Positions 5,970 to 13,595 of a DNA stretch of 64,000 nt are shown piece by piece. This DNA is from an uncultured Paracoccaceae bacterium. Lineage in GTDB: Bacteria > Pseudomonadota > Alphaproteobacteria > Rhodobacterales > Rhodobacteraceae. Numbering within the stretch: the stretch's first letter is position 1; each line of letters begins with the position of its first letter. The position numbers and the translations under genes were made by a program. The DNA is taken from NCBI GenBank assembly GCA_947493255.1, contig CANLQK010000003.1:1-64000 (forward strand). The letters are read 5' to 3'. The notes below the pieces were generated by a model. The model was not told the origin of the DNA. It saw only the letters and a list, made by a program, of their open reading frames with translations, and did no database searches.

Positions 5970-6422
5970 TTACCAGCTGTTATATCCGAGATATTTGCCC
6001 GACATTTCAACTTTCACGCGGTCCCCTTTGGGGTTTTCGACCCGAGTGACAGACATGTCAAAATCAATCGCAGACATGATGCCATCACCGAATTTTTCTT
6101 GGATCAACGCCTTCAAGGTTGGGCCATAGACACCAACGATTTCATAAAAGCGGTAGATGCATGGGTCGGTCGGAACCGCCTGTTCCCAGATCTTGGTGGG
6201 GCTTTCGGACAGCACGCTTTCGGCCTCTTGCGGCAGGCCCATGACCTTGACCATGAGCGCGGCCTTTTCTGCTGGAAAAGCGTTCATGCCCATGGCGGCT
6301 GAATGGGTCCAGACAGGTGACATGTCGATCTTTTCGGCAATACCTTCCCATGTCATTCCAGCCTGTTTCTTGGCCGAGAGGATCATGGCTGTGACGTCTT
6401 CTTTGGTCATCATGTCTGTCAT
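5970..6422 (-). CDS. cynS: Cyanase (cyanate hydratase)
   Basis: Cytoplasmic enzyme (EC 4.2.1.104) that reacts cyanate with bicarbonate to give ammonia and CO2 by way of carbamate. The 150 aa length fits the family. The N-terminal helical domain (MTKEDVTAMILSAKKQAGMTWEGIA) is followed by the catalytic C-terminal dimerisation domain with YRFYEIVGVYGPTLKALIQEKFGDGIMSAIDF split by the conserved Arg, Glu and Ser of the active site, all present. I chose the ATG at 6422 (MTDMMTKED) over the track start because AAGGA lies at proper spacing before it. It is last in an operon with a NrtABD-type transporter, which implies cyanate import. Confidence 0.95.
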   Translation of the reverse strand: MTDMMTKEDVTAMILSAKKQAGMTWEGIAEKIDMSPVWTHSAAMGMNAFPAEKAALMVKVMGLPQEAESVLSESPTKIWEQAVPTDPCIYRFYEIVGVYGPTLKALIQEKFGDGIMSAIDFDMSVTRVENPKGDRVKVEMSGKYLGYNSW

Positions 6423-6453
6423 TTGTGTGGTGTCCTTCTTATGTATTGATTTC

Positions 6454-6933
6454 TTAAAGTCCAAGCTGGGTCAGGTCGGGGTGATCATCGGGGCGTGGCC
6501 CGGGCGCATCCCAATGAAACAAGCGTTCCGCCTCTGTGATGGGCACATCGTTGATCGAAGCGTGGCGCTTTGCCATGTAGCCAAGGGCATCGAACTCCCA
6601 GTTTTCATTACCGTGCGCGCGAAACCACTGGCCCTCGGCATCGTAGTATTCATAGCAAAAGCGCACGGCGATTTTGTCTTCACTATGGGCCCAGATTTCT
6701 TTGATCAGGCGATACCCATTCTCGGTGGCCCATTTGCGGGTCAGAAATTCTTCCACTTCTGCACGCCCGTTCAAAAACTCTGAACGGTTGCGCCACTTGG
6801 TATCAGGCGTATAGGCCAGTGCGACTTTGGCCGGGTCACGCCCGTTCCAAGCGTTTTCAGCCATCCGCACTTTTTGCACTGCGTCGTCAAAGCTGAACGG
6901 GGGCACCGGGGCGCGGCGTGGCTGGCTTATCAT
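6454..6933 (-). CDS. NTF2-like (DUF1348 / SnoaL-like) protein in the cyanate operon
   Basis: A 159 aa protein of the nuclear-transport-factor-2-like fold, DUF1348 family. Recognisable features are the helix with [10 protein letters not shown], the [13 protein letters not shown] segment, [14 protein letters not shown] and the [21 protein letters not shown] core. Members have no firmly established reaction. Its start overlaps the stop of the upstream ATPase gene by ATGA and cyanase follows 31 bases later, so it is translated with the cyanate import and hydrolysis genes. A role in cyanate, carbamate or nitrile metabolism is an inference from position only. The fold call is fairly secure; the function is unknown. 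Confidence 0.85.
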
Positions 6934-7832
6934 GTCTTGACCGCCTGTAATAATGGTTGCTCTTCCACCGCATCATCCTGCGTTTTGTCGATGCGAACTG
7001 TTTCAGGGGAATGGGTCTCGTCCGGCGCGCTTATTTGGCCCGCCAATTCTGCCGAGCGTTTCCCAAGAAACTGCACCAGATGATTGCGAATGGCGTAGTA
7101 GTTCGGGTGCTCCACAATATCGGTGCGCATGCGAGGTCTTGGAATGGTGATTTCTACACTTTCGGCGACGCGTGCCAGCGGTCCGTTTGTCATCAACAAG
7201 ATGCGATCGGCCAGCAGAATTGCCTCGTCAATGTCGTGGGTGATCATAAAGACCGTTTGGTCGGTCCCGCTCCATACCTTCAGCAATTCTTCTTGAATGG
7301 TGCCGCGGGTCAGCGCGTCCAGAGCGCCAAATGGCTCATCCAGCAACAGCAGTTTGGGTTCATTGGCGAAGGCCCGGGCGATGGACACGCGCTGTCGCAT
7401 ACCACCGGACAATTGGCTTGGCTTTCGGTGGATGGCGTCACCCGACAACCCAACTTTTTCCAAAAATGCGATTGAATGGTCCTCGACCTGTTGTTTGGTC
7501 CAATCGGGGAACCGCGCGGCCACCCCGAAGGTCACATTCTTCAAGGCCGTCAGCCAAGGCAGCAGCGAATAGTTCTGGAAGACCACGCCCCGATCAAGGC
7601 TAGGTCCCGACACTGCAAAGCCGTCCATCTTGACGACACCTTGGGTTGGCTCGGAAAGGCCAGCCAGGATGTTCATTATGGTCGACTTACCGCAACCTGA
7701 ATGCCCCAAGATACAAACGAACTCGCCCTTTTCGATGCCAAAGCTGGCGTTTTCGAAAACCGTGAACTCGCCGCCTTTGCCGTCCGGATAGCGCTGGGTC
7801 AGTTTTTCAATGCTTAGAAATGAATTTGCCAT
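6930..7832 (-). CDS. cynD: Cyanate/nitrate-type ABC transporter ATP-binding protein
   Basis: Cytoplasmic ATPase of a NrtD/CynD/TauB-type importer, 300 aa. Walker [10 protein letters not shown], signature [15 protein letters not shown], Walker [13 protein letters not shown] and the H-loop THDIDEA are all intact. A C-terminal extension of about 50 residues after the ABC domain ([18 protein letters not shown] and onward) is as seen in nitrate-type ATPases. It sits between the permease and the NTF2-like gene and overlaps the latter by ATGA. The cyanase at the operon end makes cyanate the likeliest substrate. Nitrate or nitrite cannot be excluded from sequence, as the families are close. Confidence 0.85.
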
Positions 7833-7841
7833 AAGACCACC

Positions 7842-8678
7842 TTATTCCACGTAGGCCACGCGCCGCTGGAGCAGGCCGAAGGCCGCGTCCAGCAACATGC
7901 CGACAACGCCGATCATGAGAATTGAGAAAATGACGGAGGTCAGGTCGAGGTTGTTCCACTCGTTCCAGACGTAATACCCAATCCCGGTTCCGCCCACGAG
8001 CATCTCGGCGGCGACAATCACAAGCCAAGCGATCCCGATGGAAATGCGCATACCCGTCACGATGGTGGGGGCGGCGGCAGGTAGAACGACTGTAAAGGCT
8101 GTTTTGAAAGCACCGAGTTCATGGGTGCGCGCCACGTTCACCCAGTCTTCGCGCACGCCCGCCACGCCAAACGCAGTGTTGAGCAACATCGGCCAGATCG
8201 AACAGATGAAGATGACGAAAATGGCGGAGGCTTCGGAGTCTTGAATGATAAAAAGTGCCAGCGGCATCCACGCGAGTGGAGAGATCGGGCGCAGAACCTG
8301 AATGAACGGGTTGAGAGCCTTGTAAGCCACCGACGACATGCCGATCAGAAACCCGAGCGGGATCGCAATGATCGCTGCCAGAAAATAGCCTGTCAGGACG
8401 CGGTAGATCGAATAGCCGATCTGAATGCCAATGCCCTTGTCGTTAGGCCCCGCATCATAAAACGGGTTGGACAACTCTTGCCAAGCTTTGACAGCCACTT
8501 CGCTGGGAGGCGGCACACCAGCTTTCGCCGTGCCCGCCCCTGTCAGAAGTTCATACTCGGTCAGCTCGCCCGTGTTGACCGCTTGTGCGGAAATCGACAG
8601 TTCCCACACAAGCAACCCAACAATCAGAAGTGCAATCGACCAGATCGCTGCCCGCTTGTTTTCTGACAAAAGCTCCAT
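7842..8678 (-). CDS. cynB: Cyanate/nitrate-type ABC transporter permease
   Basis: Inner-membrane permease of the NrtB/SsuC/TauC class, 278 aa. The first transmembrane segment is AAIWSIALLIVGLLVWELS. About five more follow, with the cytoplasmic EAA-type loop (ELGAFKTAFTVVLPAAAPTI) that contacts the ATPase. A periplasmic insert after TM1 carries LLTGAGTAKAGVPPPSEV, usual for NrtB-like proteins. The start codon overlaps the stop of the upstream binding-protein gene (TGATG), so the two are translationally coupled. It works with the binding protein and ATPase of the same operon. Confidence 0.88.
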   Translation of the reverse strand: MELLSENKRAAIWSIALLIVGLLVWELSISAQAVNTGELTEYELLTGAGTAKAGVPPPSEVAVKAWQELSNPFYDAGPNDKGIGIQIGYSIYRVLTGYFLAAIIAIPLGFLIGMSSVAYKALNPFIQVLRPISPLAWMPLALFIIQDSEASAIFVIFICSIWPMLLNTAFGVAGVREDWVNVARTHELGAFKTAFTVVLPAAAPTIVTGMRISIGIAWLVIVAAEMLVGGTGIGYYVWNEWNNLDLTSVIFSILMIGVVGMLLDAAFGLLQRRVAYVE

Positions 8679-10069
8679 CAGTCGCCTGCTTTGATAGCAA
8701 AGCTGTCGACGTAAGCTTCTGGCTGATCAGGGTCGAAAGTTTTGCCCATAATCGTGTGCGACTTGTAGTTTTCTGCCGGTGCGTCGTAGCCAAGATCGGT
8801 CATGACTTTGCGCGCATCGGTAGCCAGATAGACCTGCTCTGCGATGCCTTTGTAATCCACTTCGCCTTCGATATAGCCCCACCGCTTCATCTGCGTCAGG
8901 ATCCACACGCCCATGGATTGCCATGGGAAGGGGTCAAAATCGATGCGGTCAGGTACCCGCTGTACGGCGCCCAGACCATCGGCATAAGTGCCCGTAAGAA
9001 CCTGTTCGATGACGGTGACCGGTTGGTTGAGGTAGTTCGTCGGCGCGATGGCCTCCGAAATCTCTGACCGGTTGTCAGGGTTGGACGCGTATTGCGTGGC
9101 GTCGATGATCGACTTGAGCAATGCGCCATAAGTATTGGGTAGTTCAGTCGCGAAGGACTGGGGGGCCGCGAAGGCACAGCAGGGGTGACCTTCCCAGATT
9201 TCCTTGGTGAGGATGTGAATAAAGCCGATACCCTCATAAACCGCACGCTGGTTGAACGGATCGGGCGACAGGTAGCCATCAAGGTTACCAGCGCGCAGGT
9301 TGGCGACCATCTCTGGCGGGGGCACAACGCGGATCTGGATATCCACATCGGGGTCCAGCCCGAATTCAGCCACGTAGTAGCGCAGCAGGAAGTTATGCAT
9401 GGAGTATTCAAATGGAACACCAAACGTGAAACCTTTCCACTGGCTTGGGTCACGTTTGTCTAGGTGCTCGTTAGAAAGCACAATCGCCTGCCCGTTGATG
9501 TTTTCCACGGCGGGCATGATGTAGGGCTCAGCGACCGAGCCAGCACCCATCGTCATTGCCAACGGCATAGGTGTCAGCATGTGGGACGCGTCGTATTCAC
9601 CTGAAAGCGATTTGTCACGGGCAACAGCCCAGCCTGCAGTTTTGATAACTTGGGCGTTCAAACCGTAGCGTTCATAAAAGCCCAGTGGCTGCGCCATGAT
9701 GATCGGCGTGGCACAAGTGATCGGCACAAAGCCAATGTTCAGGTCGGTCTTTTCCGGCGGACCAAGATCATCCAGAATATTGGCCACGGCCTGTTTGACA
9801 GGAAAGACCGAGGCAAGAGCTGCCGCGAAAGACGTGCCCCCCAACATCCCCATGAACGATCGGCGCGCGATGTCATTCTGGCCGAACATCGACCGGACGA
9901 CCGCACTTTCGACGGCGCGTTCCATCATCTGCTCAGATGACATCGCTTCTGGCTCTGAATGGTTCTTATCGTGGCCGTGACCGGTCAAGCAGGTATCACA
10001 CCCGCAATCGGCACCGTGTCTCAGATCGGTCTTATCGGAAAATGGGTTTCCAAGGCTTTTTATGGTCAT
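8678..10069 (-). CDS. cynA: Cyanate/nitrate-type ABC transporter substrate-binding protein (Tat-exported)
   Basis: Periplasmic binding protein of the NrtA/CmpA family, 463 aa and first gene of the operon. The binding domain starts with DLNIGFVPITCATPIIMAQPLGFYERYG, split by typical NrtA motifs, and includes GYLSPDPFNQRAVYEG. A twin-arginine signal (ARRSFMGMLGGTSFAAALAS) begins only near residue 68. Before it lies an unusual extension rich in Cys and His (about residues 18-36, CGCDTC then HGHDKNH) that would stay in the cytoplasm until export or be cleaved with the signal. Its role is unknown; metal binding is a guess. Cyanate is inferred as ligand from the cyanase in the operon. Confidence 0.85.
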   Translation of the reverse strand: MTIKSLGNPFSDKTDLRHGADCGCDTCLTGHGHDKNHSEPEAMSSEQMMERAVESAVVRSMFGQNDIARRSFMGMLGGTSFAAALASVFPVKQAVANILDDLGPPEKTDLNIGFVPITCATPIIMAQPLGFYERYGLNAQVIKTAGWAVARDKSLSGEYDASHMLTPMPLAMTMGAGSVAEPYIMPAVENINGQAIVLSNEHLDKRDPSQWKGFTFGVPFEYSMHNFLLRYYVAEFGLDPDVDIQIRVVPPPEMVANLRAGNLDGYLSPDPFNQRAVYEGIGFIHILTKEIWEGHPCCAFAAPQSFATELPNTYGALLKSIIDATQYASNPDNRSEISEAIAPTNYLNQPVTVIEQVLTGTYADGLGAVQRVPDRIDFDPFPWQSMGVWILTQMKRWGYIEGEVDYKGIAEQVYLATDARKVMTDLGYDAPAENYKSHTIMGKTFDPDQPEAYVDSFAIKAGD

Positions 10070-10191
10070 GTCCGTCTCCTGTCATTGGTTGACAACAAAG
10101 TTCCACGCCAAACAGCAGCAAGGAAGACCTTCTGCCAAATGCCTTCAAAGCGGGTTGGGTCTGAATTTATTGGTTAATTTTTGAGCGAACG

Positions 10192-10224
10192 TTACGAATT
10201 TTCGTAAGTTACGGGATTTCGTAA
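10192..10224. promoter_or_regulatory. Two tandem palindromes between cynA and the NtrC-type regulator
   Basis: TTACGAATTTTCGTAA (10192-10207) is an inverted repeat with 7-base arms and a 2-base spacer. One base later TTACGGGATTTCGTAA (10209-10224) repeats the outer half-sites with a diverged centre. The period is 17 bases. The pair lies 37 bases before the regulator's ATG and about 123 bases upstream of the cynA start, well placed as an enhancer-type site for cynA and an autoregulatory site for the regulator. The Fis-type C-terminus of the regulator is the likely binder; this is inferred. Confidence 0.7.
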
Positions 10225-10260: not shown

Positions 10261-12105
10261 ATGCTTGATGAAACCGAATCCGCCCATCTGATCGCCCATC
10301 ATCCGATGCCCACGATCATGTTCGACACCAATGTCGACAAGGTCGTGGCCGCCAATGACGCGGGGCGTGCCTTGCTAGGGGAAGCAACGCTGTCGGGGCC
10401 ATTGTCCAGCCGGATGGAAAATGACTATGCCGCTGCTGCTGTATTTTTCGATGCAGTTGCGCATTACGGTACCTATGTCGACCGTAGCCTCTCGTTGATA
10501 GGGGCGAACGGCGTTGCTTTGCGGCTTGAGACCCATGGTGCCCAACTCAAATCGGGCTTGGTGATGCTCAGCTTTCTGGACCTCGACAAACATGACCGTC
10601 GCAATCAGCAAGCGGAACGGGAAGCCCACCAAAATGCGGGGTTGTCCCAATGGCAAAATATCTATGGTTTCTTTCGCGAGGTCGAAGCCCAGAACCATCT
10701 GATCCTCGAGGCGGCTGGTGAAGGCATCTACGGCATAAACGCGAAAGGACAGGCCACATTCGTGAACCGCGCAGCGCAAGAGATGTTGGGCTGGTCGTCC
10801 GACGATTTGATCGGGCGCGAATTACATTCGATCATCCACCACAAACGATTATGCGGCGATCACTTTCCCGCCCATGAATGCCCGATCTACAAATCTTTCC
10901 GCCGCGACGAGACCATGCGCGTGGATGATGATGTGTTCTGGCGGAAGGATGGCAAACCGATCCTTGTGGAATATGTCTCAACCCCGATCTACGACCACGA
11001 TGTGCTGGCTGGGGCCGTGGTGATTTTTCGAGATGTAACCGAACGAAAGGAAAACGAACGCAGGCTGCGTGATGCGTTGGCGCAGGTCGAAGACCTGAAG
11101 GTAAAGCTGCAGCAGGAAAACGAATACCTTCTTACCGAAATCCGGTCCGCGCGGTCCCACACCGGCGTGATTGGCGTGTCACCCGCGATCAAATCGCTGA
11201 ACGCCCAGATCGATCTTGCCGCGCGAAGTGATGCACACGTGCTTGTTTCTGGCCCGTCTGGGTCCGGCAAAAACATGACCGCCTCGGCGATCCACGAAGC
11301 AAGCGATCGTCAGCACCGACCGCTGGTGCGCATCAACTGTGATCAGAAGAAGGCGGCAGATCTGGAAGCGGAGCTCTTTGGGTATCGCCGCGGCGCCTTT
11401 GCGGGGGCCGCGCGGGATGTGACGGGCAAATTGCTCATGGCACACAATGGGACCCTGCATCTAGACGAAGTCGCGACCCTACCTGCAAAAGTGCAAGCCA
11501 GCCTATACGATGTTCTGCAAGCGGGCCATTTCCGGCGTCTAGGCGACGGCGCTGATATTCCCGTTGCGGCCAAAGTCGTCGCTACTACAAGCTATGATCT
11601 GCTGGCGGAAGTGCGCGCTGGGCGGTTCCGTCAAGACCTCTATTTCGCCCTGAACGTGCTTCCGATTATGACCGAACCGCTCATGAACCGGCCCGAAGAC
11701 ATCCCTTATCTCGCGCGGCATTTTCTTGATCGCACGATGCAGCGTCTGCGCTTGCCAAAGATGACGCTGACCAAAGCCAACATCGAAACGCTGCAATCCT
11801 ATGGCTGGCCAGGAAATGTCCGCGAGTTGGAAAACGTGATTGAACGTACGGCCATCCTTGCGCAGGGCGGCCGTCTACAGTTCGACATCCAAAGAGGTCA
11901 GTCAGACGCCCCAATAGAAACAAACCGAGTGCTGACCCAGAAAGAACTGCGGCAGTTGGAAATCAAAAACTTTGAAGCTGCACTGCGCCGTGCAAAGGGA
12001 AAGATTTCCGGCAAATCCGGTGCGGCGGCGATCCTCGGACTTGCCCCAACAACGGCATATTCAAAGGTCAAGTCGCTGGGCATCCAGGTGGACCAATTCT
12101 CATAG
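10261..12105 (+). CDS. NtrC-family transcriptional activator with PAS domain and altered GAFTGA loop
   Basis: A 614 aa regulator: divergent N-terminal sensory region (1-110), PAS domain (about 143-260, with a Cys/His motif CGDHFPAHECPIY), coiled linker, AAA+ domain (about 300-530) and Fis-type helix-turn-helix at the end (GAAAILGLAPTTAYSKVKSLG). Walker A is GPSGSGKN (331-338) and Walker B LHLDEV. The sigma54-contacting loop, normally GAFTGA, is GAFAGA at 378-383. In this family the Thr is critical for sigma54 engagement, and R. capsulatus NtrC, which lacks the motif, works with sigma70. It is divergent from the cyanate operon and probably controls it. There is no receiver domain, so a ligand signal through PAS is likely. 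Confidence 0.88.
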   Translation: MLDETESAHLIAHHPMPTIMFDTNVDKVVAANDAGRALLGEATLSGPLSSRMENDYAAAAVFFDAVAHYGTYVDRSLSLIGANGVALRLETHGAQLKSGLVMLSFLDLDKHDRRNQQAEREAHQNAGLSQWQNIYGFFREVEAQNHLILEAAGEGIYGINAKGQATFVNRAAQEMLGWSSDDLIGRELHSIIHHKRLCGDHFPAHECPIYKSFRRDETMRVDDDVFWRKDGKPILVEYVSTPIYDHDVLAGAVVIFRDVTERKENERRLRDALAQVEDLKVKLQQENEYLLTEIRSARSHTGVIGVSPAIKSLNAQIDLAARSDAHVLVSGPSGSGKNMTASAIHEASDRQHRPLVRINCDQKKAADLEAELFGYRRGAFAGAARDVTGKLLMAHNGTLHLDEVATLPAKVQASLYDVLQAGHFRRLGDGADIPVAAKVVATTSYDLLAEVRAGRFRQDLYFALNVLPIMTEPLMNRPEDIPYLARHFLDRTMQRLRLPKMTLTKANIETLQSYGWPGNVRELENVIERTAILAQGGRLQFDIQRGQSDAPIETNRVLTQKELRQLEIKNFEAALRRAKGKISGKSGAAAILGLAPTTAYSKVKSLGIQVDQFS

Positions 12106-12489: not shown

Positions 12490-13500
12490 TTAGGTCGTGG
12501 GGGCTTCTCTATGCCGTGCTGGTGTAGTTTGGTACCAGCGATAGAATGCCCTATAAAAAGCACCCTCTTCTGAGTATCCAACGGCTTGTGAAATGTCAGA
12601 AATCGAAAGCTCCGTCCGCGAGAGCAGTGCCGTTGCGCGGTTGCGCCGTTGTTCGTCCTTTAGCTGCAAGACTGAATGGCCTGCATCTTTCAGCATGCGA
12701 TGAAGGGTAGAGCGGGACATGCCAAGTTGGTCAGCAATGCCGTTTGCATCGGGCCATTTTTGAGGCGGTCCACTTAGGCATTTTTCGACAATAACGTGTT
12801 TCAAACCTTCTGTATCTCTGTACCCGCGCAGGAACGCTTCGGGCAGTGTGCGTAGGAAACTTTTCAGTTCATACTCTGTGCGTTCTGCGCGTTGAGTTAG
12901 GTATTTTCTGTCAAAAACCAGTCGTGCAATGGGAGCGTTGAAAACGACGGGGACTCCAAAGAAGTCGCGGTAATCGTTTTGGCCCTCTGGTTCGGGGCAG
13001 GGGAACGAGACCGATTTGATGGGGATGCGTTCCTTTGCTGACCAACAATTGAAACCATGTAGAATGAGGAAAAATGCACGGTAGGTGAAGGCACCGTGTG
13101 GAGCTTGTGAGTGATTCAACTCGATTACACAATTAGGCCCTATTGTACGCATCGTTCCAAAGGGTTCATCTAGCACAATGCGCAAAAAACGAAGCGTTCG
13201 GTTGATTGCAACTTCTAAGGTTTCAGCCCCTCTGATTGCGTGGCCTAGTAGGGTTGTACTTCCTGGGCGCATGGGGCGTTGGCCCAGTCCGAAAAACTCA
13301 TCGCGCATTTGGAGTGAAAGGGTTAGCCAGATCCGGCCAAATTCTTCAGTGCTCAACCTTTCTAAACGGTCAGGTGAAACACGGGCGTCTTGCAATAGTT
13401 TTGAAATATCTATTCCCGAATTCCGCGCGCAGGTAAGCGCCTCGTCAACGAAAATTGAGGCAACTGGGCGGGACGGAAGGCGGCTATCATTATGTATCAT
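12490..13500 (-). CDS. AraC-family transcriptional regulator
   Basis: About 336 aa. The N-terminal part (about 10-200) fits the arabinose-binding-like sensor domain of OruR/ArgR-like AraC proteins (GQRPMRPGSTTLLGHAI, EPEGQNDYRDFFGVPV split by variable sequence). The C-terminal AraC helix-turn-helix pair includes IADQLGMSRSTLHRMLKDAGH and ISDISQAVGYSEEGAFYRAF. I prefer the ATG at 13500 (MIHNDSRL) over the GTG at 13521; neither has a strong Shine-Dalgarno. It is divergent from the valine/isoleucine operon beginning at 13596, with under 100 bases between, so it most likely regulates that operon in response to a branched-chain intermediate. The ligand is unknown. Confidence 0.88.
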   Translation of the reverse strand: MIHNDSRLPSRPVASIFVDEALTCARNSGIDISKLLQDARVSPDRLERLSTEEFGRIWLTLSLQMRDEFFGLGQRPMRPGSTTLLGHAIRGAETLEVAINRTLRFLRIVLDEPFGTMRTIGPNCVIELNHSQAPHGAFTYRAFFLILHGFNCWSAKERIPIKSVSFPCPEPEGQNDYRDFFGVPVVFNAPIARLVFDRKYLTQRAERTEYELKSFLRTLPEAFLRGYRDTEGLKHVIVEKCLSGPPQKWPDANGIADQLGMSRSTLHRMLKDAGHSVLQLKDEQRRNRATALLSRTELSISDISQAVGYSEEGAFYRAFYRWYQTTPARHREAPTT

Positions 13501-13595
13501 CTTGGTCCAACAATCTGACACTATTGATACCTAAAGCAAGTGCTATAAATGCCAGACTGCCGATGATGGTTGGTTCTTCGTGGAGGAAGTAAGTG

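Follow-up and report, generated by a model that had tools for sequence, protein, structure and literature searches.

The cyn locus and its regulator

The window analysed here, a whole stretch of 64,000 nt from contig CANLQK010000003.1 of an uncultured Paracoccaceae bacterium, contained a cyn locus with two tandem 16-bp dyads, very probably the operators of the regulator CynF. The dyads lay between the divergent cynA (start at 10069, minus strand) and regulator gene (start at 10261, plus strand; Table 1). The minus-strand operon was in the order of cynA, cynB, cynD, a DUF1348 gene and cynS. The regulator gene was divergent from and adjoined cynABD and cynS, and its product displayed the sensor, AAA+ and Fis-type helix-turn-helix (HTH) architecture of CynF-type regulators. 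The PAS and Sigma54_activat domains were identified by domain search; the Fis-type HTH was visible only in the family alignment, with no Pfam HTH match at E 0.001. This HTH region was conserved between the Rhodobacterales and non-Rhodobacterales groups of the alignment.

Table 1. Features of the cyn locus in the window (ABC, ATP-binding cassette).
Feature	Position	Strand	Basis or remark
CynF operator dyad 1 (predicted), cynA-proximal, TTACGAATTTTCGTAA	10192..10207		In-register conservation, 44/44 Rhodobacterales loci
CynF operator dyad 2 (predicted), cynF-proximal, TTACGGGATTTCGTAA	10209..10224		Exactly 17 bp from dyad 1
Conserved AT-rich block TCGCTCAAAAATTAACCAATAAATTC, candidate cynA promoter region or co-factor site	10163..10188	-	3 nt from dyad 1 towards cynA; putative role
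cynF-type regulator gene, 614 amino acids, PAS - Sigma54_activat AAA+ - Fis-type HTH	10261..12105	+	Domain matches and family alignment
Codons for GAFAGA, in place of the sigma-54 contact motif GAFTGA	11392..11409	+	Family alignment
cynA, substrate-binding protein of a putative cyanate/nitrate-type ABC transporter (NMT1_2)	8678..10069	-	
cynB, ABC permease	7842..8678	-	TIGR01183 over cut-off
cynD, ABC ATPase	6930..7832	-	TIGR01184 over cut-off
DUF1348/NTF2-like gene, inserted in the operon	6454..6933	-	
cynS, cyanase	5970..6464	-	NF002773 and TIGR00673 over cut-off

Tandem dyads upstream of cynF

The first-pass annotation of this DNA had described tandem 16-bp palindromes with a 17-base period in the divergent promoter region, and both 16-mers were recovered. 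Dyad 1 was indeed an inverted repeat, with 7 of 8 complementary pairs, its 7-bp arms matching exactly on either side of TT. Dyad 2 had 6 of 8 complementary pairs: the five outer pairs, which agreed with the outer half-sites described, and also a central A-T pair that the description had left out. They were the sole intergenic 16-mers with at least six complementary pairs. The pattern TTACGN6CGTAA occurred twice in the whole genome of 3,361,642 bases, exactly at the two dyads, and when the intergenic region was dinucleotide-shuffled 5000 times, no tandem pair of identical 5+5 dyads appeared. A loose search of the whole window for the dyad pattern, allowing 3 mismatches, gave a number of matches not above chance; the significance of the dyads rests on their tandem arrangement and conservation, and not on counts of loose matches.

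Regulator homologues were gathered from GTDB-type contigs, from whole-genome sets at the genus, family, class and phylum levels, and from plasmids. The comparison set comprised 82 CynF-type loci, 44 from Rhodobacterales and 38 from other groups, and operators and promoters were scored with hand-set weights. The start codons were uncertain at several distant loci, which affected the distance to cynF and not the spacing between dyads. All 44 Rhodobacterales loci carried the two dyads upstream of the regulator, and the spacing between centres was exactly 17 bp in every one. Elsewhere it was 17 bp in 34 of the 38 loci and 18 bp in the other 4. This distance corresponds to ~1.6 helical turns and not to nearly two turns as had been supposed; the accompanying suggestion that the dyads face different sides of the helix was arithmetically right, and the helical offset was invariant in Rhodobacterales. 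A strong site paired with a weak one did not hold as a general rule, since the better dyad varied (dyad 2 was perfect in L016 and L032, and dyad 1 in others).

Most non-Rhodobacterales loci also had two or three dyads upstream of the regulator, including those from Rhodospirillaceae, Hyphomicrobiales and Gammaproteobacteria, where the identity of the regulator protein was only ~40–48%. Such phylogenetic footprinting across Alpha- and Gammaproteobacteria, relatives of ~40% identity included, strongly supported the earlier proposal that the dyads are probable binding sites of the cyanate regulator. Homologues on Acinetobacter plasmids (L065 and L066) had three dyads, TTATGAAATTTCGTAT and similar, and stood ahead of a nit1C-type nitrilase cluster (MSMEG_0567-0572), not of cyn genes. 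These loci indicated that the site tracks the regulator rather than the cyn operon.

The specificity of the arrangement was examined by searching 298 genomes of the family for the 33-bp tandem with at most 3 mismatches. There were 16 matches, found in 15 of the 18 CynF-carrying genomes, each beside the regulator, and in 1 of the 280 others; the reversed pattern gave no match in the same genomes. The sole match without CynF (G180, L116) had neither cynF nor cynA nearby and resembled one long hairpin. Based on this distribution and the conservation in all Rhodobacterales loci, the tandem dyads are very probably CynF operators.

Three further observations concern this operator family. The arrangement in L065 and L066 suggested a single operator family common to cyanate and cyanide-related regulons. 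On the Loktanella salsilacus plasmid (L062, 1620-13474), the cyn operon, CynF and a nit1C-type cluster were adjacent. Related shorter activators of ~480 amino acids (L100-L105) had at most one similar upstream dyad, for example TCACGATATTTCGCGA.

Loss of sigma-54 features in Rhodobacterales

Regulators of the class to which CynF belongs normally work with sigma-54. The first-pass annotation had missed this class membership, the lack of sigma-54 in the genome and the altered GAFTGA loop. Sigma-54-dependent bacterial enhancer-binding proteins (bEBPs) carry GAFTGA and have sigma-54 in the same genome; the window CynF had GAFAGA, and neither of the two domain models used for sigma-54 (rpoN) gave a match in its genome, the completeness of which was 99.78%. 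GAFTGA was present in none of the other AAA+ activator-type proteins read in this genome, two fragments being read only in part. The window CynF kept LDEV and also Walker A (GPSGSGKN), the latter being retained beside an altered or missing loop in unconventional bEBPs acting with sigma-70. Among 30 relatives checked for rpoN, the gene was carried only by those with a full match, and most CynF carriers of the same genus were without it. Outside the family, rpoN was present in all 37 CynF-carrying genomes.

The loci outside Rhodobacterales displayed a different layout. The loop was GAFTGA in 34 of the 38, GAFSGA in 2, GSFTGA in 1 and GAYPGA in 1 (L083). The operators were usually three, with spacings of 17–18 and 21–23 bp; all three dyads were at or above the threshold in 28 of the 38 loci, and the others had a weak member. 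In 36 of the 38 loci, the interval separating the operators from cynA (or nit1C) contained a near-consensus TGGCAC-N5-TTGC element (score of at least 13.5), and in L082 the promoter was just beyond the stretch scanned for the final table, bringing the total to 37. The distances from operator to -24 element (L033-L099) clustered at ~55, 67, 79, 88 and 98 bp, that is, with a period of ~11 bp (vector length of 0.74 for 17 distinct values; none of 5000 random draws was as high, with kinship only partly removed). This periodicity was a clear face-of-the-helix constraint.

Neither a third dyad nor a sigma-54 -24/-12 promoter was found in any of the 44 Rhodobacterales loci, where promoter matches were below the threshold and mostly within the shuffled range. 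A sigma-54 promoter in front of the window cynA, as proposed for strain CECT5344, was likewise absent; its best score was 11.2 of 15.7, in the shuffled range for near relatives. The loop was degenerate (GAFAGA, GAFPGA, GAFRGA or scrambled) in 40 of the 44 Rhodobacterales CynF proteins, and in the alignment the REDLYFRLN segment and the flanks of Walker A and Walker B drifted as well.

In a CynF tree built with the loop columns omitted, Rhodobacterales formed one side of a fully supported branch. The third operator changed once on the tree, the sigma-54 promoter twice and GAFTGA at least six times. The second promoter change was that of L083 (G539), which had GAYPGA and no sigma-54 promoter in a genome with rpoN. 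It is possibly a second, independent loss of GAFTGA and the sigma-54 promoter, and it was not leaned on because 10% of the assembly is contamination.

Proposed mechanism

The best overall explanation, to which we give a probability of about 0.82 on these sequence comparisons, is that the dyads are the CynF operator, which would act as a sigma-54 enhancer in most Proteobacteria and would now serve sigma-70 activation in Rhodobacterales. CynF, as a Fis-type HTH dimer, would bind each dyad of the form TTACGA-N4-TCGTAA and, when bound, switch on the divergent cynABD-DUF1348-cynS operon, presumably with cyanate as the signal, as taken from the work on P. pseudoalcaligenes. The same dyads probably also repress cynF, since dyad 2 ends 36 bp before its start codon. 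In most Proteobacteria, three dyads in helical phase with the -24/-12 promoter would constitute a classical sigma-54 enhancer, and a hexamer made up of three dimers would fit on such a scaffold. Rhodobacterales lost one of the dyads as well as the sigma-54 promoter and their GAFTGA loop decayed, so the most likely function of the remaining pair is to recruit or activate the sigma-70 RNA polymerase, at a promoter that would be close to dyad 1. CynF of this order presumably contacts and activates the housekeeping polymerase in the way of R. capsulatus NtrC.

As to how this came about, we consider it reasonably likely that the order converted a classical sigma-54 enhancer with three sites into a sigma-70 activator site with two. 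One operator, the -24/-12 promoter and the contact loop would have been lost together, with no change in the binding sequence or in the spacing of 17 bp, and rpoN lost from many genomes afterwards. Comparison with relatives suggests that the switch protein for cyanate use has held on to its docking sites in this marine group and has given up the sigma-54 machinery that it originally drove.

A conserved 26-bp block, TGCCCANAAATTAATCAATAAATTC in the cynA direction, began 3 nt from dyad 1 in all 23 loci of the window clade and was displaced outwards by 22 nt, equal to two helical turns, in three sister-clade loci (L011, L054 and L059). The offset pattern fits a promoter contacted by an activator, and the block is a candidate for it. 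A motif search of the clade-2 intergenic regions yielded a different, NtrC-like element and not this block. A conserved palindrome near TGCACAAATTTTGTGCGC, similar to an NtrC site, was located ~54–57 nt from dyad 1 towards cynA in seven loci (L047, L048, L051, L055, L057, L060 and L061), and may add nitrogen control to the sister-clade cyn promoter.

Several points weigh against the overall explanation. No convincing -10 hexamer was found at a fixed position towards cynA. Some Rhodobacterales CynF carriers possess rpoN, and paralogous sigma-54 factors in such genomes might use diverged promoters. Two CynF proteins of the order (L012 and L046) retain GAFTGA and two have GAFSGA. Moreover, the correlation among the traits is essentially one observation, the one main event, with L083 as one independent case. 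The GAFTGA of L012 and L046, present though the sigma-54 promoter is absent, could be a retention or a reversion.

Alternative explanations

Three other explanations were considered. The first is that CynF binds the dyads solely as an autorepressor or roadblock whose repression is lifted by CynF itself, while another activator such as NtrC drives cynA. The closeness of dyad 2 to the cynF start agrees with it, as do the degraded loop and other activator residues of CynF and the NtrC-like palindrome in some relatives; a candidate promoter of cynF, TTGGTT-N17-TACGAA at 10170-10198, would share sequence with dyad 1. However, the P. pseudoalcaligenes homologue regulates positively and cyn expression requires it, and the cynA-side block keeps either the fixed offset or one two helical turns longer, as expected for an activator at a promoter. 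We regard this explanation as unlikely. The second assigns the dyads to another factor of the MarR, TetR or AraC type, their association with cynF being a hitch-hiking on operon synteny. A palindromic 16-mer is a typical site for many HTH dimers and an AraC-type gene lies nearby, but the dyads also accompany the Acinetobacter homologues without cyn genes, occur once per genome beside the CynF regulator and, where there are three, are phased with sigma-54 promoters in the enhancer layout of its class, which makes this very improbable. Equally improbable is a sigma-54 factor missed in the assembly (24 contigs, not closed) or too divergent to be recognized and still used by CynF: the few GAFTGA and GAFSGA loops that persist in the order would suit it, but the genome is nearly complete with zero matches by both domain models, several genomes of the genus likewise lack rpoN, no Rhodobacterales locus has a -24/-12 element, and GAFTGA is missing from the other activator-type proteins.

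Comparison with known systems

CynF as a regulator and unconventional bEBPs as a kind are already known. In P. pseudoalcaligenes CECT5344, CynF is required for cynABDS expression and cyanate induction, and a putative sigma-54 promoter was placed before cynA of cynFABDS, with no operator described (PMC6627978). The two loci share a divergent Fis-type regulator of the sigma-54-activator class beside cynABD-cynS, whereas the window has two dyads, a GAFAGA loop, no sigma-54 promoter and no rpoN. NorR of E. coli has three enhancer sites at norVW, which serve as a scaffold for its AAA+ oligomer (PMC2941729). The three CynF dyads outside Rhodobacterales are alike in number; the site sequence differs, and the Rhodobacterales operator has only two dyads.

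Some bEBPs that lack GAFTGA are known to act on sigma-70 promoters, and R. capsulatus NtrC, which has no GAFTGA, is reported to contact sigma-70 polymerase and to need ATP binding and not hydrolysis (PMC10274813). The NtrC proteins of R. capsulatus and Caulobacter are unconventional alphaproteobacterial bEBPs with GAFTGA lost and action on sigma-70 promoters (PMC10274813). However, both are two-component response regulators with a loop deletion, whereas CynF has a PAS sensor, mostly loop substitutions and a different operator. E. coli CynR also regulates cyanase genes, but it belongs to the LysR family, and both protein and site are unrelated. A literature search, for which open-licence papers alone were available and absence is weak evidence, found no description of the CynF operator, its three- and two-dyad forms or a lineage-wide uncoupling from sigma-54.

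For the CynF family, the dyads provide an operator that is specific and can be tested, together with a natural series that illustrates how uncoupling of an AAA+ enhancer-binding protein from sigma-54 can occur. The step from three to two dyads would be in keeping with a regulator for which a hexameric ATPase ring is no longer necessary, and a long-standing question on unconventional bEBPs becomes directly testable with one promoter family. The annotation "sigma-54-interacting regulator" in Rhodobacterales need not imply sigma-54 control.

The AraC-type regulator gene mentioned above (12490-13521), which encodes an Arabinose_bd N-terminal domain, adjoins cynF and lies upstream of an acyl-CoA dehydrogenase/thiolase cluster.
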